From positions 1 to 47,211 of the forward strand of contig JAQVWN010000013.1 in the NCBI GenBank assembly GCA_028749475.1: a stretch of 47,211 bases of DNA, written 5' to 3'. Under the pieces are notes generated by a model. The model had not been told where the DNA came from, did no database searches, and saw only the letters and a program-made list of their open reading frames with translations. Of the stretch, positions 9,946 to 34,142 are shown one piece after another. The number at the start of each line of letters is the position of its first letter. Position 1 is the stretch's first letter. Source of the DNA: Thomasclavelia sp. (GTDB lineage: Bacteria > Bacillota_I > Bacilli_A > Erysipelotrichales > Coprobacillaceae). The translations under genes and the position numbers were made by a program.

Positions 9946-9967
9946 AAAAGGAAGCTAAATAGCTTCC
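9946..9967 (-). terminator. Intrinsic terminator of the thioredoxin gene
   Basis: On the minus strand GGAAGCTA, loop TT, TAGCTTCC followed by TTTTATG. The stem overlaps the last four codons of the thioredoxin gene. Confidence 0.75.
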
Positions 9968-10257
9968 AATGTATCTTTAATCTGTTGTTTAGGAACTGCT
10001 CCAGAAATTTCTTTAGCAATATTACCATCCTTAAATATCATTAAATGAGGTAAACCCATTATTCCATATTTTTGTAAGATATTCATATTTTCATCAGCAT
10101 TTATTTTATAAAATACTACGTTAGTCATTTCTTTTTGGAGTTCTTCTAATACTGGAGCAATCATTTTACAATAACCACACCAATCAGCAGTAAAATCAAC
10201 TAAAACAATTCCTTTTGATGTTTTTTCATCAAAATTACTTTCATTTATAAATTCCAT
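9955..10257 (-). CDS. trxA: Thioredoxin
   Basis: A 100-residue thioredoxin-fold protein of normal length. The redox motif is WCGYC (in ADWCGYCKMIAPVLEEL), where the usual Pro is Tyr, a change that is known in Firmicute thioredoxins and affects redox potential. The cis-Pro loop is GLPHLMIF. It reduces disulfides in cytosolic proteins with electrons from thioredoxin reductase, which is not in the window. A GGAGATGAT ribosome binding site precedes the ATG. Confidence 0.93.
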   Translation of the reverse strand: MEFINESNFDEKTSKGIVLVDFTADWCGYCKMIAPVLEELQKEMTNVVFYKINADENMNILQKYGIMGLPHLMIFKDGNIAKEISGAVPKQQIKDTLEAI

Positions 10258-17773: not shown

Positions 17774-17995
17774 AAAAAAAATCCATCTCTATCTTAGAGA
17801 CGAATTATCGCGTTACCACTCTAGTTACTACAAATTGACTTTGTAGTCTCTCTCCCCATTAAGGCTGGTTACCAAAAGATATACTATATTTCCATCTTTC
17901 CTCTCGTAAATGCGGTTCGTCAATAAGTAATACTAATCTTCCATCATCATTAGCTTGCTTGAAATACTTTATTGAGTACTCTTTTAGTCATCGAG
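17774..17995 (-). promoter_or_regulatory. T-box leader (tRNA-Arg responsive) of argCJB
   Basis: The minus-strand leader contains the T-box core AGAGTGGTAACGCG (17821-17808; consensus AGGGTGGTACCGCG), followed by a terminator with arms CGTCTCT/AGAGATG and an eight-T tract (17781-17774). Stem I is recognisable: base pairing CTCG/CGAG, the arm CAATAAAGTA/TACTTATTG, and an apical part resembling the usual GCTGATGGTxGGTG region. In the specifier loop the sequence ACCGCATT gives CGC followed by the conserved purine, a codon for arginine. Uncharged tRNA-Arg would stabilise the antiterminator and switch on argCJB. I am sure of the T-box and fairly sure of the specifier. Confidence 0.85.
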
Positions 17996-18004
17996 TTTAA
18001 AATT

Positions 18005-26246: not shown

Positions 26247-26276
26247 GATTCTCCTATTTATAATTATTTATCATTG

Positions 26277-26292
26277 TGATAATATATTATCA
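26277..26292. promoter_or_regulatory. 16-bp perfect palindrome upstream of the PucR gene
   Basis: TGATAATATATTATCA is a perfect palindrome lying 1 base before the AGGGAGA ribosome binding site. A second weaker dyad, TATCA-TTG-TGATA (26270-26282), overlaps it on the left. The position fits autorepression or a coupled control of the divergent argF. Confidence 0.5.
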
Positions 26293-26305
26293 TAGGGAGA
26301 GCAAT

Positions 26306-27490
26306 ATGAGTATAAAGGTAAAGGATATATATTATAAAATTCAAAAAAGTATCGGGAATGATATTAAACTTATGGCTGGAGATAATGGTCTAAGTAATAT
26401 TGTGGAGTGGTTTCATACTGTTGAAAGAAGTAATGTTGCGAGCTTTTTAGAAGGAAATGAAGTTGTTGTCACAACGGGTATTGCCCTTCAGGAACAAAAT
26501 GAAACATTAAAAGATATAATTTCTGCTTCCCTTACTAACAAAGCAAGTGCCATTATCGTTAATACTGGTCCTTATATTAAAGATATTCCTTTAGATGTAA
26601 TTCAGTTTTGTAATGATAACGCTCTTCCTCTACTAGTGTGTCCTTGGCATATTTATATGGCTAACATTCTAAAAATAATAGTTGGGGTTATAACTCATGA
26701 CAATGAAAAACAATATGAATTAATTTCAGCCTTTAAAAATGCTTTGTGTTTTCCTACTCAACAAGATTTATATATCTCTTCTTTAGAAAGATATGATTAT
26801 GAGCCAGAATGGAAATATTGTGTAGCTATTATTAAAGTCTGTAATAAAAATGAAAGTACTAATATCAATAAAGAAGGACTAAGAAAAATCCAAAAACAAG
26901 TTGATCATGTTTTAGCATTTAATGCTCCAGAGAGTATTACTTTAAAGCATCGAAGTGAGTTAGTAATTTGTTTTGCTAATAGAAATGAAAGTAGTATTTT
27001 TCAAACTATGTCCTTAGTTATCTCTAATTTAGAAACTAAATATCATAAATTATATGATATTTATAGTGGAATTGGTCGAAATACTAAAAGTATTAGATGT
27101 TTATATAAAACCTATAATATTGCTGATAAAGTAATTTCTCTTCAACAAAAAGTTAAGAATACTTATCAGGTCGTTTCCTATAGTAAAATGGGATTCTCTA
27201 AATTATTCTTATCAATGGATGATAAAGAAATTATGTTAGAATACTATGATGAAGTATTAAAACCTTTAGTGGAATACGATATTATCAATAAAAGTGATTA
27301 TGTTGGTTTCTTAGAAGTTTATTTTAATAATGAATGTAAAGCTCAAGAAACAGCCAATCAACTATATTTACATCGAAATTCTGTCAACTATCGTTTAAAA
27401 AAAATAGAAGATATCTTAGGATTCGATATCAATGAATTTAATAATAAAGTATCAATTGTAATTGCTTTAAAAATAAGAATGTTAATTTAA
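26306..27490 (+). CDS. PucR/CdaR family transcriptional regulator
   Basis: A 394-residue regulator. The N-terminal PucR domain (about residues 3-115; VKDIYYKIQKSIGNDIKLMAGDNGLSNIVEW...EVVVTTGIAL) senses a small nitrogen-rich ligand in known members; a GGDEF-like middle follows, and the C terminus QETANQLYLHRNSVNYRLKKIEDILG is the HTH_30 DNA-binding domain. The frame opens at 26276, but the ATG at 26306 has AGGGAGA 6 bases upstream and begins at the domain, so I choose it. It precedes the taurine operon on the same strand with a terminator between, and is the most likely activator of that operon. Confidence 0.88.
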   Translation: MSIKVKDIYYKIQKSIGNDIKLMAGDNGLSNIVEWFHTVERSNVASFLEGNEVVVTTGIALQEQNETLKDIISASLTNKASAIIVNTGPYIKDIPLDVIQFCNDNALPLLVCPWHIYMANILKIIVGVITHDNEKQYELISAFKNALCFPTQQDLYISSLERYDYEPEWKYCVAIIKVCNKNESTNINKEGLRKIQKQVDHVLAFNAPESITLKHRSELVICFANRNESSIFQTMSLVISNLETKYHKLYDIYSGIGRNTKSIRCLYKTYNIADKVISLQQKVKNTYQVVSYSKMGFSKLFLSMDDKEIMLEYYDEVLKPLVEYDIINKSDYVGFLEVYFNNECKAQETANQLYLHRNSVNYRLKKIEDILGFDINEFNNKVSIVIALKIRMLI

Positions 27491-27514
27491 AAGAATGCCT
27501 TGGCATTCTTTTTT
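27489..27514 (+). terminator. Intrinsic terminator of the PucR gene
   Basis: AAAAGAATGCC (27489-27499), TT, GGCATTCTTTT (27502-27512), then T. It isolates the regulator from the taurine operon. Confidence 0.88.
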
Positions 27515-27611: not shown

Positions 27612-27938
27612 ATGAAGATGATCAAAGCTATTGTCCGAGTGGAAAAAGCTGATGATGTTGCAAAAGCAACCCTAGATGCTGGTTATCCAGCGATGACTCG
27701 TTTTGATGTTTATGGTCGTGGTAAACAAAAAGGAATCAAAGTTGGAACAGTATTCTATGATGAATTACCAAAGAAAATGATCTTAATGGTCGTTGAAGAC
27801 GAAGATGTTGATAAAGTTGTAAAAATTATTACTGATGCAGCTAGAACAGGTGAAGAAGGTAACTTTGGAGATGGTCGTATTTTTGTAAGTAATGTTGAAG
27901 ATTGTTTTACAATTTCATCACTTAGTGAATCTCTTTAA
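27612..27938 (+). CDS. PII-family nitrogen regulator, NifI1-like
   Basis: A 108-residue PII protein. The N terminus MKMIKAIVRVEKADDVAKATLDAGYPAMTRFDVYGRGKQKGI matches GlnB-like NifI1, the B-loop is AARTGEEGNFGDGRIFV, and the C-loop region follows. The T-loop (VGTVFYDELPKK) is short and contains one Tyr but not the GlnB uridylylation context. PII proteins read ATP/ADP and 2-oxoglutarate and bind target proteins. Here it is the first gene of a taurine-uptake operon, not next to nitrogenase. Its Lys-rich start has GGGAGG upstream. The second PII follows after 14 bases. Confidence 0.9.
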   Translation: MKMIKAIVRVEKADDVAKATLDAGYPAMTRFDVYGRGKQKGIKVGTVFYDELPKKMILMVVEDEDVDKVVKIITDAARTGEEGNFGDGRIFVSNVEDCFTISSLSESL

Positions 27939-27952
27939 AGAGGTGAGTAAAG

Positions 27953-28279
27953 ATGATTGAAATTATAGCAATAATAAGACCAAATAAAACTTCAGCAACT
28001 AAACAAGCTTTGATTGATGTTGGTTTACCTGGATATACCTGTATTAAAGCTTTTGGTCGAGGTAAAAAGCCAGTCGATATCTCATTACCGGATGGTACTA
28101 CCATCTCGACAAAGCTAATGAATAAAAGAGTATTCTTGATTGTTGTTCCTAACGAATCGAAAGAAGAAGTGATTAAAACAATCTTAAAGGTTAATTCAAC
28201 CGGTCTTCCTGGTGATGGAAAAATATTTACAATCAATATTTCAGATACTTATAACATCCATCATGCTTGTCATGATTAA
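27953..28279 (+). CDS. PII-family nitrogen regulator, NifI2-like
   Basis: A 108-residue PII protein similar to NifI2: MIEIIAIIRPNKTSATKQALIDVGLPGYTCIKAFGRGKKP at the N terminus, a longer T-loop (about residues 43-62) than its neighbour, and the B-loop VNSTGLPGDGKIFTI. NifI1 and NifI2 form hetero-oligomers in methanogens and clostridia that sense 2-oxoglutarate; these two are probably partners in the same way. It ends 11 bases before the permease gene, so it is part of the transporter operon. Confidence 0.88.
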   Translation: MIEIIAIIRPNKTSATKQALIDVGLPGYTCIKAFGRGKKPVDISLPDGTTISTKLMNKRVFLIVVPNESKEEVIKTILKVNSTGLPGDGKIFTINISDTYNIHHACHD

Positions 28280-28290
28280 GGAGAAATATT

Positions 28291-29064
28291 ATGAAAAAGA
28301 AACTAACCAAAGAAAAATTAATATCGATTATAACTGTTGTAGTCATCTTTGCAGTTTGGTACATCATTACCAATTACAACATGGTTGATGCCAAGTTAGT
28401 GCCTACTCCCCAAAAAACTTGGGAAGGATTTCTAACTGTTATTAAAGATTATAAGGGACATTCCTTATTAGAACATCTTGCAGCTAGTATGCAAAGATTA
28501 TTCATTGCCTTTGGACTAGCGGTAATTACCGCCGTTCCTTTAGGACTACTTAGTGGATATTCTTCTAAAGTAAGAGCTGTAATGTCCCCTATTATTGAAT
28601 TCTATCGTCCACTTCCACCTCTTGCTTACTACACATTATTAGTATTAGCTCTTGGAATTGGTGATGAATCAAAGATAGCTTTACTTTACTTAGCTTGTTT
28701 TGCACCAATTTATATTTCATGTATGGCTGGTGTTATGAAAGTAAGTAATGATTTTATAAATAGTGCCTTAACTTTAGGGGCTAGTAAAACTCAAGTATTT
28801 ATTAAAGTAATCTTTCCTTCTTGTTTACAAGAAATGTTTACCGGAATTAGAACCGCAATTGGGGTAGCGTATTCTACTTTAGTTGCAGCTGAGATGGTAG
28901 CTGCCTCTTCTGGAATTGGTTGGATGGTATTAGATGCCAAGAACTGGTTTAGAAATGATGTAATCTTTGTTGGAATTATCGTTATGGGAATTACAGGGAT
29001 CTTAATTGATGCAATTTTAAAACTTATAGAAAGAAAAGTCGTGCCATGGGCTGGTAAGGCTTAA
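28291..29064 (+). CDS. tauC: Taurine-type ABC transporter permease
   Basis: A 257-residue inner-membrane permease of the NitT/TauT family with six predicted membrane segments. It carries EFYRPLPPLAYY, as in TauC/SsuC (PLPPLAW), and the ATPase-coupling EAA-like loop ALTLGASKTQVFIKVIFPSCLQEMFTGIR. Together with the following lipoprotein and ATPase it forms a complete importer. The TauA-like partner makes taurine the likely substrate. GGAG precedes the start. Confidence 0.9.
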   Translation: MKKKLTKEKLISIITVVVIFAVWYIITNYNMVDAKLVPTPQKTWEGFLTVIKDYKGHSLLEHLAASMQRLFIAFGLAVITAVPLGLLSGYSSKVRAVMSPIIEFYRPLPPLAYYTLLVLALGIGDESKIALLYLACFAPIYISCMAGVMKVSNDFINSALTLGASKTQVFIKVIFPSCLQEMFTGIRTAIGVAYSTLVAAEMVAASSGIGWMVLDAKNWFRNDVIFVGIIVMGITGILIDAILKLIERKVVPWAGKA

Positions 29065-29077
29065 AAGGAGAAAGAAA

Positions 29078-30091
29078 ATGAAAAATATTAAAAAATTATT
29101 AGCTTGTTTATGTAGTGTTTGTTTAGCACTTACTCTTATTACTGGTTGTTCTTCATCATCATCTGATGAAAAGACAACTAAAGTAATTATTGGTACTCAA
29201 GAAATGCCAAATGATGAAGGAATTGCTAAAGCTAAAAAGTATTTTGAAAAAGAATTAGGGGTTAAAGTTGAATATAAAAAGTTTGATAGTGGTAAAGATG
29301 TAGCTACTGCTTTAATGACAGAAGATATTGATTTTGGTTTACTTGGATCTTGTCCAGCGGCTTTATCAATTGCTCAAGGAGCTAAAGTTGAATATATTTG
29401 GACTCATGAAGTATTAGGTTCAGTTGAATCATTAGCTGTAAAAGATACTATCAAACAAGCATCCGATTTAAAAGGTAAAAAGATTGCAACACCTTTTGCA
29501 TCTACTGCTCACTTCTCTTTACTTAAATATTTAGAAGAAAATAATATTTCTCAAAGTGATGTAACTTTGTTAGATATGCAACCAGCTGAAATATATACAG
29601 CTTGGGAAAGTAATCAAATTGATGCTACTTATTTATGGGAACCATCATTATCTCAATTAACAAATAAATCAATCTTAGTTACTAGTGAACAAATGGCTAA
29701 AGATGGTTTTATGACTGCCAATGTTGAGTTAGTAACAACAAGTTTTGCTAAGAAAAATCCTAAATTAGTAAAGAAATATTTATCAGCTTTAAATAAATCA
29801 GTTGAATTATTTAAAAACAGTCAAGATGAAGCCGTATCTGCAATTTCTAAATATATGGAATTATCTACTGATGATGCTAAGTTCCAAATGTCTGGTTCTA
29901 CATGGTTAACTGCTAAAGAACAAATTGGAAGTGAATATATGGGTACTGCTAAATCTAAAGGTAAAACAGTTGATAACCTATATGATATTGCTAAGTTCTT
30001 AAAGGATCAAAAGAGTATTACCGATTTACCTAAAAAATCAGTATTCAAGGATGCTGTTAATCCTTCATATGCTGAATCAATTGCCAAATAA
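29078..30091 (+). CDS. tauA: Taurine-binding lipoprotein of ABC transporter
   Basis: A 337-residue periplasmic-binding-type lipoprotein: signal peptide with lipobox LITGC (Cys24) and a Ser-rich linker. The mature part aligns by eye with E. coli TauA: YKKFDSGKDVATAL (TauA KFDSG), GLLGSCPAAL, IATPFASTAHFSLLKYL (TauA IAVPFISTTHYSLL), LLDMQPAEIYTAWESNQIDATYLWEPS. These segments line the sulfonate site in TauA. This is the strongest evidence in the operon for taurine rather than nitrate or another sulfonate. Confidence 0.92.
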   Translation: MKNIKKLLACLCSVCLALTLITGCSSSSSDEKTTKVIIGTQEMPNDEGIAKAKKYFEKELGVKVEYKKFDSGKDVATALMTEDIDFGLLGSCPAALSIAQGAKVEYIWTHEVLGSVESLAVKDTIKQASDLKGKKIATPFASTAHFSLLKYLEENNISQSDVTLLDMQPAEIYTAWESNQIDATYLWEPSLSQLTNKSILVTSEQMAKDGFMTANVELVTTSFAKKNPKLVKKYLSALNKSVELFKNSQDEAVSAISKYMELSTDDAKFQMSGSTWLTAKEQIGSEYMGTAKSKGKTVDNLYDIAKFLKDQKSITDLPKKSVFKDAVNPSYAESIAK

Positions 30092-30108: not shown

Positions 30109-30903
30109 TTGTATATGATGAGTCAAGAAGAAGAAGTTGTAGTATCGATAAAGGATGCTAACCTGATTTATAGCGGGGATAAAAAAGAAACTGTTGCTCT
30201 TAAAGATATTAATTTAGATATTAAAAAAGGTGAATTTATATGTGTTCTTGGTCCTTCAGGATGTGGTAAAAGTACTTTATTAAATATTATCGCTGGGTTT
30301 CATAAACCAACTAGTGGCGTAGCTATGATGGGTGATACTAGGATTGAAAAACCTGATTGGCATAGAGGTGTGGTGTTTCAAACACCAACCCTCTATCCTT
30401 GGTTAAATATTTATGACAATGTTGCCTTTGGACCAAAACTTAGAAAAGTAAACAAAGAAACAATTGATGAAAATGTTAATAAATATTTAAAATTAGTTGG
30501 TTTAGAAGATTTCCACAAATCAAAACCTTATGAATTATCTGGAGGGATGCGTCAAAGAGCCTCTCTTGCAAGAGTTTTAATTAATGAACCGAAGATGATC
30601 TTAATGGATGAACCTTTTGGAGCCTTAGATGCTCTTACCCGAGTTAATATGCAAGCATTAATTCGTGATATCTGGAACAAAAACAATAATACTATCTTCC
30701 TCATCACTCATGATGTTGATGAAGCTTTAGCTTTGGCTACTAGAGTTATCGTCATGTCCTCAAGACCAGGAAGAATAGTTAAAGAGTTTAACACTGATTT
30801 TACATATGACATTGTTGGTGCCAACCAAGAAAGTGCTATGTATTCAGATGAATATGTCAATATCAGAGAAGAAATACTAAGTATTATCAATACTCAAAAA
30901 TAA
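30109..30903 (+). CDS. tauB: Taurine-type ABC transporter ATPase
   Basis: A 264-residue nucleotide-binding subunit. Walker A is GPSGCGKST, the Q-loop FQTPTLYPW, signature LSGGMRQRASLARVL, Walker B MILMDEP and the switch His in FLITHDVDEA. It belongs to the TauB/SsuB/NrtD group. Alternative starts exist at M1, M3 or M4 (30109, 30115, 30118); the first has GAGGGT upstream. It sits 17 bases after tauA. Confidence 0.93.
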   Translation: MYMMSQEEEVVVSIKDANLIYSGDKKETVALKDINLDIKKGEFICVLGPSGCGKSTLLNIIAGFHKPTSGVAMMGDTRIEKPDWHRGVVFQTPTLYPWLNIYDNVAFGPKLRKVNKETIDENVNKYLKLVGLEDFHKSKPYELSGGMRQRASLARVLINEPKMILMDEPFGALDALTRVNMQALIRDIWNKNNNTIFLITHDVDEALALATRVIVMSSRPGRIVKEFNTDFTYDIVGANQESAMYSDEYVNIREEILSIINTQK

Positions 30904-30922: not shown

Positions 30923-32263
30923 ATGGAAAAATTAAATGGAGAACAAGTAAAAGAATTACATAAAAAAAGGATCTTACAATCATGGTCGGTAGCTGGTAAA
31001 GATGTCTTACCTATTCAAAGGGCTCAAGGGATCTACTTATATGATTATGATGGTAAAAAATATGCTGATATGTCTTCTTTACTAGTGTGTTCTAATTTAG
31101 GACATGATAATAGAGAAATTGTGGAAGCTATCAAAGCGCAAGCAGACAAAATGTGTTTTATGGCTCCTGCTTATGCTAGTGAACCCAAGAGTTTACTAGC
31201 AGATAAACTTTGTAAACTGGCTGGAGAAGACACTTACAAACGAGTATTCTTTGCGAATGCTGGGGCTGATTCTAATGAAAACGCTATTAAGATGGCCAGA
31301 ATTGTTACAGGGCGGACTAAAATATTTTCAGCCTATCGTTCTTATCATGGTGCAACTCTTGGAGCTAGCAATGCTTCTGGTGATTGGCGTAGATTCGCTG
31401 CTGAAATTGGTGGAGCCAACGGATTTGTAAAATTTATGAATCCTCATATGTATCAAGATGGATACACTAGAGGTGTAGATGACAAAGAATGTACTAAAAA
31501 AGCTTTAGCAGCTTTAAAGCTTCAATTAGAATATGAAGGGCCTAATCAAGTAGCAGCAATTATTATGGAAAGTATTGTAGGAGCTAATGGAGTTATCTTA
31601 CCACCTGAAGGTTGTATGGAAGGTGTTAGAGCTTTATGCGATGAATATGGTATCTTGATGATTTGTGATGAAGTTATGTGTGGTTTCTATCGTACTGGTA
31701 AACCTTTTGGTTGGCAAAACTTTGATATTAAACCAGATATGATGACTTTTGCCAAAGGAGTAACTAATGCTTATGTTCCTCTTGGGGGAGTTATTGTAAA
31801 TGAAAAAGTAGCTAGTTATTTTGAAGAAAATGTTCTTCAATGTGGACTTACATATAGTGGTCATACCCTAGCATGTGCTGCTGGTGTTGCTTGTTTAGAT
31901 TATTATCAAAATCATAATATTGCTGATAATGTTCAAAAAATGTCAGTTATCTTAAAATCATTTATGGATTCAATGGTTGAAAAGCACTTATGTGTTGGAG
32001 AAGCTAGATGTATTGGTCTATTCTCAGCCTTTGAAATTGTTAAAGATAAAAAGACTAGAGAACCTTTAGTTCCTTATCATGATCAATCAGGTACTATGGC
32101 TAAAATAATTGGCAAATTAAAAGAAAAAGGTTTCTCTACCTTTGGTAGAGAAAACAATATTAATATCTGTCCTCCATTAATTATTACTAAAGAAGAATTA
32201 GAAGAGTACTTACCTATAATGGATGAAGTATTAACTTATGTTGATGAGACATACTGTAAGTAA
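30923..32263 (+). CDS. Class III aminotransferase, probable taurine aminotransferase
   Basis: A 446-residue PLP enzyme. Key features: SWSVAGKDVLPIQRAQGIYLYDYDGKKYADMSS at the N terminus (the WSxxG...P pattern of taurine aminotransferases), YRSYHGAT, the PLP-binding ICDEVMCGFYRTG (Asp249) and the Schiff-base Lys278 in TFAKG. Known relatives are Tpa (taurine:pyruvate, forming alanine) and Toa (taurine:2-oxoglutarate, forming glutamate); I cannot tell which acceptor is used. The product would be sulfoacetaldehyde, the substrate of the next gene. It could also be an argD-type enzyme, but the context and N-terminal motif argue against that. Spacing to neighbours is 19 and 12 bases. Confidence 0.85.
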   Translation: MEKLNGEQVKELHKKRILQSWSVAGKDVLPIQRAQGIYLYDYDGKKYADMSSLLVCSNLGHDNREIVEAIKAQADKMCFMAPAYASEPKSLLADKLCKLAGEDTYKRVFFANAGADSNENAIKMARIVTGRTKIFSAYRSYHGATLGASNASGDWRRFAAEIGGANGFVKFMNPHMYQDGYTRGVDDKECTKKALAALKLQLEYEGPNQVAAIIMESIVGANGVILPPEGCMEGVRALCDEYGILMICDEVMCGFYRTGKPFGWQNFDIKPDMMTFAKGVTNAYVPLGGVIVNEKVASYFEENVLQCGLTYSGHTLACAAGVACLDYYQNHNIADNVQKMSVILKSFMDSMVEKHLCVGEARCIGLFSAFEIVKDKKTREPLVPYHDQSGTMAKIIGKLKEKGFSTFGRENNINICPPLIITKEELEEYLPIMDEVLTYVDETYCK

Positions 32264-32275
32264 AGGAGAATAATT

Positions 32276-33388
32276 ATGGATTTTAATTATATGCAACCAG
32301 TTAAAATAATATTTGGTAATGGTCGCTTAAATGAGTTAAGCGCTCTAACAAAGCAGTTTAAGGGTGAAGGATTACTTATTTGTGATAAGTTCTTTTATGA
32401 TAATGGTTTAGCTAAACAAATCTTAGATAATACTCCGACAATTAATACATTATATTATGATGTTTCTCCTAATCCCGATACTAGTGAAGTAGATGCTTGT
32501 AGCCAGTTAATTAGAAATAATGATTTAAAGTTTATTGTAGCTTTAGGTGGTGGTAGTGTTATTGACTGTGCTAAAGTAGCCAGTACTTTAGCTCTTACCA
32601 ATGATTCGGTTACCAAGTATCATGGAACTGGTAAAGAACTTCCTTCTTTACACCTACCACTAATAGCTATTCCAACAACAGCAGGTACTGGTAGCGAAGT
32701 TACCTGTGCTGCTGTTCTAACAAATCGAGAACTAATGAAAAAAGCTCCAATAAATTCTGATAACTTTTATCCGCTGTATGCAATTATTGATCCAGAACTA
32801 ACATATAATATTCCTAAACAAATAACAGCTAATACTGGCATGGATGTCTTATGTCATGCTTTAGAAGGTTTTTGGTCTAAAGGACATCAACCCATTTGTG
32901 ATATCTTTGCCTTAAAAGCCTGTAAACTGGTCTTTGATAACTTATTAGAGGTTTATCATAATCCTGATAATAAAGAAGCTCGTTCAAATATGTGTGAAGC
33001 TAGTTTACTAGCTGGAATGGCCTTTTCAATTCCTAAAACTACTTCTTCTCATGCTTGTAGTTTCCCTTTAACTAATATTTATGGCATTCCTCATGGTGAG
33101 GCTTGTGCTCTTACTATTGATTACTTTGCTTTAATTAATAAAGATGCTAAAGATAAACGTTTAGTAAGTTTTGTCAAAGAATTAGGATTTAAAGATGTTG
33201 AAGAAATGGCCATTAAAATTAAAGAGATGAAAAAAGAAATGAAGATGAGAATCGATTTAAAAGATTTAAATATTTCTAAAGATCAATTAAGTGATTTAAT
33301 ATCTCTTTCTCGTCATCCTAATTTATATAATAATCCTGTTGAAATTACTGATACAATGTTGAAAGATATGTATCAATCAATGATTTAA
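32276..33388 (+). CDS. Metal-dependent alcohol dehydrogenase, probable sulfoacetaldehyde reductase
   Basis: A 370-residue iron-type alcohol dehydrogenase. NAD-binding GGGSVIDCAK is at residues 91-100 and TTAGTGSEVT at 134-143; predicted metal ligands are Asp190, His194, His259 and His273. In place of the second His of the usual HxxxHPLG motif there is Phe263 (PKTTSSHACSFPLTN), as in the phosphonoacetaldehyde/sulfoacetaldehyde reductase branch, which reads TTxxHAxSY. It would reduce sulfoacetaldehyde to isethionate with NAD(P)H. The stop overlaps the ATG of the exporter gene (TAATG). Substrate assignment is inference from the subfamily motif and the operon. Confidence 0.82.
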   Translation: MDFNYMQPVKIIFGNGRLNELSALTKQFKGEGLLICDKFFYDNGLAKQILDNTPTINTLYYDVSPNPDTSEVDACSQLIRNNDLKFIVALGGGSVIDCAKVASTLALTNDSVTKYHGTGKELPSLHLPLIAIPTTAGTGSEVTCAAVLTNRELMKKAPINSDNFYPLYAIIDPELTYNIPKQITANTGMDVLCHALEGFWSKGHQPICDIFALKACKLVFDNLLEVYHNPDNKEARSNMCEASLLAGMAFSIPKTTSSHACSFPLTNIYGIPHGEACALTIDYFALINKDAKDKRLVSFVKELGFKDVEEMAIKIKEMKKEMKMRIDLKDLNISKDQLSDLISLSRHPNLYNNPVEITDTMLKDMYQSMI

Positions 33389-34095
33389 TGAAAACCATAT
33401 TATTTTTATTAGTATTATTTTTTGCAAATGTTATTCAAACAATTACCGGCTTTGCCGGTAATTTACTAGCTATGCCCTTTTCTATCTCCTTGATTAGTTA
33501 TAATAGTGCTAGAGTTGTAATTAATATCTTTACTTTAATTAGTTGTGGAACAATAGTTTGTAAAAACTATAAGAGTATTCGATTTGATATCCTATTTAAA
33601 TCTTTAGTAGTGTTATGTATTGGAATGTTATTTTCTTTCATTCTATTAAATCAAATTGATTTAAGTATTTTAAAAGTAGTATATGGAATTTTAATAATTT
33701 TAATTGCATCTAATAAGATGATCTTTCATATTTCAATTCCTTCTAATGAATTATTAAATATTATAATTGTCTTTATTGCTGGCATAATTCATGAGTTGTT
33801 TTTATCTGGGGGAGCATTGTTAGTAGTCTATTATAGTTCTGTTTTAAAAGATAAAGATGAATTTAGAGCAACTATTGCTAGTGTTTGGGTTATCTTAGAT
33901 AGTTTACTAGTTATTGAACACTTCTTTGAGCATTTATATACTTCTATTAATATTACTTATATTGGACTAAGTATCATTCCTTTAATATTATCTTATTTTG
34001 TGGGCAAAAAGTTATATTCAAAAGTAGATACGAAGTCTTTTATGAATATTACATATATCCTACTACTTCTTTCTGGAATATTTATCTTAATATAA
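33388..34095 (+). CDS. TauE/SafE-family membrane exporter (probable isethionate exporter)
   Basis: A 235-residue membrane protein with about seven to eight hydrophobic segments. The start MKTILFLLVLFFANVIQTITGFAGNLLAMPF matches the TSUP (TauE/SafE) signature, including the GFAG loop. TSUP members export sulfonates, sulfite or sulfoacetate; in taurine nitrogen pathways a member named IsfE exports isethionate. Start codon overlaps the previous stop, so it is translated with the reductase. Last gene of the operon, ended by the large hairpin at 34095-34142. Confidence 0.85.
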   Translation: MKTILFLLVLFFANVIQTITGFAGNLLAMPFSISLISYNSARVVINIFTLISCGTIVCKNYKSIRFDILFKSLVVLCIGMLFSFILLNQIDLSILKVVYGILIILIASNKMIFHISIPSNELLNIIIVFIAGIIHELFLSGGALLVVYYSSVLKDKDEFRATIASVWVILDSLLVIEHFFEHLYTSINITYIGLSIIPLILSYFVGKKLYSKVDTKSFMNITYILLLLSGIFILI

Positions 34096-34142
34096 AAAAA
34101 GATATCTATTAAACTGAATAATCAGTTATAGATATCTTTTTT
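34095..34142. terminator. Large bidirectional terminator
   Basis: AAAAAAGATATCTAT (34095-34109) and ATAGATATCTTTTTT (34128-34142) form a 15-bp perfect stem; the loop itself contains AACTGA/TCAGTT. It ends the taurine operon and the gene downstream of hflX. Confidence 0.88.

Follow-up and report, generated by a model that had tools for sequence, protein, structure and literature searches.

PII proteins of the NifI1 and NifI2 classes have so far been studied as nitrogenase switches, acting by switch-off on an enzyme, nitrogenase. A PII gene that adjoins the gene of a nitrogen-compound transporter is known from the GlnK–AmtB system. In diazotrophic methanogens, NifI1 and NifI2 are reported to be always encoded inside the nitrogenase operon (PMC8395244, published in 2021). 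In Synechocystis, one general PII protein controls the ABC importers NrtABCD and UrtABCDE, acting on NrtC/NrtD and UrtE; the binding has been shown, and NrtC carries an extra regulatory domain (PMC6603209). In the TauABC–Toa–TauF system of Bifidobacterium kashiwanohense, taurine is imported, transaminated to yield glutamate, reduced to isethionate, and exported; the same study established the function of TauF and the crystal structure of BkTauF, and the string "regulat" does not occur in its text (PMC6616044).

Here, we describe a nifI1–nifI2 pair of Thomasclavelia sp. (assembly GCA_028749475.1, contig JAQVWN010000013.1; "the window" denotes the whole analyzed stretch of 47,211 nucleotides). 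The locus resembles the nif clusters of methanogens and clostridia in the order nifI1–nifI2, in the clades of the two proteins, and in the T-loop length and ligand residues of NifI1, and differs from them in that the host has no detectable nitrogenase and the operon encodes taurine uptake and use. With GlnK–AmtB it shares the PII fold and the position of a PII gene beside that of a nitrogen-compound transporter, whereas here two PII genes accompany an ABC importer, and GlnK forms a separate clade and has its own glnK–amt locus elsewhere. As in Synechocystis (PMC6603209), the target of PII would be an ABC importer that brings in a nitrogen source, with proposed closure at high nitrogen; in contrast, the taurine operon has a dedicated NifI pair and TauB and TauC without an extra domain, and its putative PII–importer relationship is seen as conserved gene adjacency. 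Finally, the aminotransferase, reductase, ABC importer, and exporter have counterparts in B. kashiwanohense (PMC6616044), but in the Bifidobacterium loci that we read TauCAB is divergent and PII genes are absent. No paper on NifI gating taurine import was found in a literature search limited to papers accessible without subscription.

Operon Content and Boundaries

The genes follow the order nifI1–nifI2–tauC–tauA–tauB–toa–tauF–tauE (Table 1), with 14 bp between nifI1 and nifI2 and the start of tauC 11 bp past nifI2. The original prediction had described the pair as fused into a transporter operon: the genes indeed share one operon, whereas the proteins are separate, with no fusion. The unit from nifI1 to tauE is bounded by a hairpin, which sits exactly between the PucR gene and nifI1, and by a 3′ inverted repeat. 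The terminator consensus scan gave four sites vs. 2.8 expected, which is weak evidence when taken by itself; the inverted repeat was read from the sequence and is not among the sites of the scan. Genes of the PucR type adjoin most toa–tauF loci.

Table 1. Features of the taurine operon and its surroundings in the window.
Feature	Coordinates	Strand	Evidence
PucR-family transcriptional regulator that probably controls the operon	26276..27490	+	Pfam PucR 93.5 bits, HTH_30 67 bits
Terminator-like hairpin after the PucR gene, operon 5′ boundary	27489..27512	+	10-pair stem, then T run
nifI1-like PII gene, 108 aa	27612..27938	+	Pfam P-II 85 bits; PDB 9p1x_H 1.8e-26; NifI1 clade 100/99
nifI2-like PII gene, 108 aa	27953..28279	+	Pfam P-II 65 bits; PDB 9p1x_G 3.1e-17; NifI2 clade 95/92
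tauC, ABC permease	28291..29064	+	Best NCBIfam TauC 231.9 bits (cut-off 342); Pfam BPD_transp_1
tauA, substrate-binding protein	29078..30091	+	Best NCBIfam taurine_ABC_bnd 188.7 bits (cut-off 304)
tauB, ABC ATPase	30109..30903	+	Best NCBIfam taurine ABC ATPase 256 bits (cut-off 357)
toa, taurine:2-oxoglutarate aminotransferase (class III)	30923..32263	+	PDB 6jix, E 7.4e-214, 70% identity
tauF, iron-type alcohol dehydrogenase, probable sulfoacetaldehyde reductase	32276..33388	+	PDB 6jko/6jkp, E 4.5e-148
TauE/SafE-family exporter, probable isethionate exporter	33388..34095	+	Pfam TauE 62 bits; function by analogy with PMC6616044
Inverted repeat AAAAAGATATCTAT...ATAGATATCTTTTT, likely operon 3′ terminator	34094..34142	.	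Read from the sequence

The combination that marks a taurine nitrogen-assimilation operon, namely, genes of Toa and a TauF-type reductase together with an importer (TauCAB), is present. Judged by this gene content, the operon is one of taurine-nitrogen assimilation, which refines the earlier description as a transporter operon. For TauA, TauB, and TauC, the taurine models are the best-scoring ones, yet each score is under the equivalog cut-off, and thus the assignment of taurine as the substrate comes mostly from the enzymes. The chain of 6jix is named taurine:2-oxoglutarate aminotransferase in PDB itself, and 6jko/6jkp, whose chain is named methanol dehydrogenase there, we take to be the BkTauF structure of PMC6616044. 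Elsewhere in the window, a T-box leader (Rfam RF00230, 109 bits) occupies positions 17793–18000 of the minus strand.

Identity of the PII Pair

Both proteins match the Pfam P-II domain (PF00543; curated cut-off, 25 bits) over its full length (positions 1–98 of 102). The GRGK and GDG[KR]IF signatures (GRGK and TG..GDGKIF in the original prediction) are present in both of them, the latter reading TGEEGNFGDGRIF in NifI1 and TGLPGDGKIF in NifI2. Their top PDB sequence matches are two different PII chains of the same entry, 9p1x, chain H for NifI1 (the next other entry scoring 6.6e-18) and chain G for NifI2 (the next, 2.5e-13). As the chains of 9p1x group with nif-linked proteins in the tree described below, this entry probably holds NifI1 and NifI2; it is absent among the listed Foldseek matches, and the literature search yielded no paper on it.

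Structure prediction, suggested as a check in the original prediction, gave the ferredoxin-like PII fold for both single chains (AlphaFold2 pLDDT 84 and 88), the T-loop region being the least certain part of the models. The top Foldseek matches of the two models are GlnK/PII structures (E ∼1e-10), and structures of acetylglutamate kinase–PII complexes also occur among the fold matches.

A maximum-likelihood tree was constructed for 92 PII sequences from taurine, nif, and GlnK loci, using an alignment of 112 columns only, and many of its inner forks are poorly settled. All NifI1 proteins form one clade (51 sequences, support 100/99), which includes the first protein of the window; all NifI2 proteins, including the second one, form another (33 sequences, 95/92). 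The GlnK proteins, including GlnK of the Thomasclavelia genome, constitute a separate clade (98/88), with the window pair outside. Thus, the pair falls among the nif-cluster pairs, in agreement with the NifI1/NifI2 identity proposed originally, whereas the suggestion of a different or new PII branch was overstated, as both proteins belong to the NifI branch, and it is their setting that is new.

Taurine-linked NifI2 proteins are nested within the nif-linked ones (branches 98/93 and 97/82), so that the tree is most naturally read as descent from nitrogenase regulators: the ancestor of the pair was most likely the system that controls nitrogenase post-translationally. A single origin of taurine-linked NifI2 is absent from the best tree, yet it is not rejected (p-AU 0.39), and thus both one and several recruitments are possible.

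Nitrogenase and Other Nitrogen Regulators in the Host Genome

The Thomasclavelia genome (1.84 Mb) is 97.9% complete with 0.9% contamination. The original prediction stated that the window holds no nif gene and proposed a search for nifHDK in the remaining genome; no nitrogenase is seen in the examined part of the window, and the genome-wide search, at ∼98% completeness, yielded no match to PF00148 (NifD/NifK). The only NifH-family match in the genome is a ParA/Soj protein (QKGGVGKTT), not NifH.

The genome has three PII genes, and the third one, located elsewhere, is glnK adjoining amt; thus, the NifI pair is not the general PII of ammonium transport. The GlnD uridylyltransferase was not found in the genome, and hence regulation of the pair is probably by ligands alone. 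In relatives of the same family or order (loci L007, L008, L010, L013–L017, L019, L023, L024), a PII match lies inside a frame of 565–616 aa, the size expected of an Amt–GlnK fusion; in Thomasclavelia, amt and glnK are separate.

Taurine Loci in Other Genomes

With the NifI2 protein as the only query, the scan of the genome collection gave no hits, and it was therefore repeated through Toa. The Toa profile, applied to one genome per GTDB species, identified 79 loci, of which 51 hold homologs of both Toa and TauF and form the basis of the transporter comparison. These loci come from related genomes, and thus the adjacency counts given here are not independent trials: in all 12 other loci with the same type of TauCAB, nifI1–nifI2 is present and lies directly before tauC. 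The ABC loci have at least five gene orders in different genera, and the pair is always immediately 5′ of tauC. Hence, the association with the ABC transporter, noted originally for one locus, recurs throughout this type.

Other transporters are accompanied by NifI1 alone. Among nine loci with a GltS-like symporter, a single nifI1 is present in eight, and the ninth (L029) is on a 5.3-kb contig that ends soon after; all seven loci with an APC permease also have nifI1 alone. In each of these 15 single-PII loci, nifI1 adjoins the permease gene. In the 16 loci where TauCAB is divergent, mostly from Bifidobacterium, no PII gene was seen. Three loci (L072–L074) have neither PII nor a transporter of the ABC, GltS-like, or APC types, and L072, the one that we read, has another permease. 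Among the remaining four loci, two (L036 and L051) are truncated, PII is missing from L075, and L076 has the pair and no recognized transporter.

Sequence Changes With Genomic Context

NifI1 of the window retains the PII ligand residues G35, R36, G37, K38, Q39, and G41, the equivalent of K58, and the GDG motif. Its T-loop has 16 residues, as in all taurine-linked and guanidine-type NifI1 (the latter are described in the next section) and 56 out of 57 nif-linked NifI1, and G35, G37, G41, K54, and GDG are unchanged.

In NifI2, on the contrary, the T-loop (the stretch between G37 and K58) differs: its length is 27–37 residues in all 57 nif-linked proteins and 25 in the two of the guanidine type; of the ten taurine-linked ones, nine, including that of the window, have 20 and one has 15, so that the lengths do not overlap between the groups. 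NifI2 of the window thus lacks the long T-loop of the nif type and is a member by descent, yet a divergent one. The T-loop is the part of PII proteins that usually reaches the target, and hence the difference in its length fits a change of the target. Moreover, NifI2 of the window has Lys in place of Gln39; Gln never occurs at this position in the taurine-linked and guanidine-type groups. As a clean marker of taurine-linked NifI2 the loss of Gln39 is weakened, since only 32 out of 57 nif-linked NifI2 have Gln here. A longer B-loop of NifI1 (eight vs. five residues) was rejected as a taurine marker, as it is also seen in 24 out of 57 nif-linked NifI1. These changes point to NifI1 as the main sensor of 2-oxoglutarate, and, given the absence of Gln39, the ligand response of taurine-linked NifI2 may differ.

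NifI Genes Beyond Taurine and nif Loci

Of 398 sampled genomes of the Blautia phylum, 67 have matches to the NifI1 profile at 1e-22, some of these matches being weak and probably GlnK, and in the contexts that we read nearly all NifI1 genes are in nif clusters. Two nifI1–nifI2–ABC operons without toa, L214 and L224, were found, both in one genome. In L214, the operon is followed by a guanidine-I riboswitch (9963–10070) and then by the urea-amidolyase-associated genes UAAP1/UAAP2, a context that points to guanidine or urea uptake as being under the control of NifI. In L224, the operon is accompanied by genes of an arginase-family hydrolase, a third divergent PII protein, and a PucR-type regulator; this third PII (L224:10954–11259, Pfam P-II 37 bits), located between the other two, is very divergent. 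The literature search found no paper linking PII genes to guanidine riboswitch operons, and nothing relevant on the PII-like protein PotN.

Single NifI1-like genes occur beside genes of a Liv-type permease and a Toa-like class III aminotransferase (L231:6719–7066); between ppk-like and phoU-like/pstS-like genes, with GSG replacing GDG (L232:6748–7101); and as an orphan (L230).

Several further clusters encode nitrogenase-like proteins. Megasphaera and Blautia genomes with taurine-linked NifI1 (L237 and L238) have clusters with two NifHDK-like sets mixed with hypF-, hypD-, and hydF-like genes (named by eye). Another locus (L235:2238–9832) is a NifHDK-like operon with NifB-like, cysK-like, and nifS-like genes and without NifI; as a guess, it might encode a nitrogenase-like sulfur-salvage reductase rather than nitrogenase.

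Origin of the Operon

In the phylum sample of 392 genomes, no NifI1-class match at 1e-28 was found beyond this Thomasclavelia genome, and neither was this Toa (1e-120) in other genomes of the family sample (43 genomes); thus, the operon looks acquired. The closest relatives of Toa found in the GTDB-species scan are clostridial (77%). The GC content of the operon is unremarkable (0.318 vs. 0.298).

Proposed Function and Alternatives

We propose, with a probability of about 60%, that taurine uptake is gated by the NifI1/NifI2 pair, which would derive from a nitrogenase regulator and sense 2-oxoglutarate and ATP/ADP; the original prediction had likewise named the ABC transporter as the likely target. 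Taurine would enter via TauCAB; Toa would transfer its amino group to 2-oxoglutarate, yielding glutamate; TauF would reduce sulfoacetaldehyde to isethionate, which the TauE-family protein would export. The predicted ligands of NifI1 are 2-oxoglutarate and Mg-ATP/ADP. Under nitrogen excess, with low 2-oxoglutarate or with bound ADP, a NifI1–NifI2 hetero-oligomer would dock on the cytoplasmic face of TauCAB and block taurine import, and under nitrogen shortage, 2-oxoglutarate together with ATP would release it. The link between the pair and the transporter is one of genomic adjacency, no extra domain that might serve as a PII docking site was seen in TauB and TauC, and the transporters adjoined by NifI1 are of three unrelated types, something unexpected of a specific contact. 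This gating scheme is borrowed from GlnK–AmtB, from the switch-off of nitrogenase by NifI, and from the action of PII on NrtC/NrtD and UrtE (PMC6603209).

The main rival target is Toa, as it is common to all three transporter arrangements. The pair might regulate Toa (or TauF) rather than the transporter and thus tune a transamination that consumes 2-oxoglutarate and yields a reactive aldehyde. Toa and TauF are shared by the ABC, GltS-like, and APC versions of the operon, all having NifI1, and since NifI1 occurs without NifI2 beside the two latter transporters, the shared enzyme could be the target. Furthermore, soluble enzymes are PII targets elsewhere, as with the acetylglutamate kinase complexes among the fold matches, and the known target of NifI, nitrogenase, is an enzyme. 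However, at least 20 toa–tauF loci lack PII, NifI1–NifI2–ABC operons without toa exist, and nifI stays beside the transporter gene, not toa, across the gene orders, making this target somewhat unlikely. Control of expression, where the pair, acting via the PucR-type regulator or some other factor, would restrict transcription of the operon to nitrogen shortage, appears improbable: PII proteins do act on transcription factors in other bacteria, and PucR-type genes are found at most toa–tauF loci and at L224, but they are equally present in the Bifidobacterium loci without PII, the adjacency of nifI and pucR is not conserved, and loci L077–L082 have the pair and no PucR match.

Two more alternatives detach the pair from the operon. 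It could be a spare PII that supports GlnK in regulating Amt, glutamine synthetase, or further global targets, with its place in the operon due to chance; the fold and the ligand site are indeed common to all PII proteins, and the genome has a single GlnK. This is more doubtful still, given that the position beside the transporter gene is kept over at least five arrangements in different genera, and that the NifI1-class match and Toa are restricted to one out of 392 genomes of the phylum sample and one out of 43 genomes of the family, respectively. The last alternative, that the pair acts on a nitrogenase encoded at another genomic location, is nearly refuted: NifI1/NifI2 are normally found in nif clusters, and at ∼98% completeness of the assembly a gap is possible in principle, but the genome has no match to PF00148, its sole NifH-family match is ParA, and PF00148 is also unmatched in 19 out of 24 genomes with taurine-linked NifI.

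Implications

Under the gating of taurine uptake proposed above, control of nutrient uptake is probably a new use of a nitrogenase-type switch. A broader generalization, to which we would give even odds, is that NifI, rather than regulating nitrogenase only, is a modular switch that responds to ligands and that anaerobes have recruited to the uptake of nitrogen compounds: NifI1 with NifI2 would act on ABC importers of the NitT/TauT family (for taurine and, probably, guanidine/urea), NifI1 alone on GltS-like and APC permeases, and the T-loop of NifI2 would have been remodeled for the new target. Comparing the loci that have NifI1 + NifI2 with those that have NifI1 alone offers a direct test of what NifI2 does. 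If the proposed gating is true, the operon would be a small nitrogenase-free system for studying NifI1/NifI2 assembly and the response to 2-oxoglutarate, and fermenting bacteria, many of them from gut and rumen samples, would have fast nitrogen-dependent control of taurine use.
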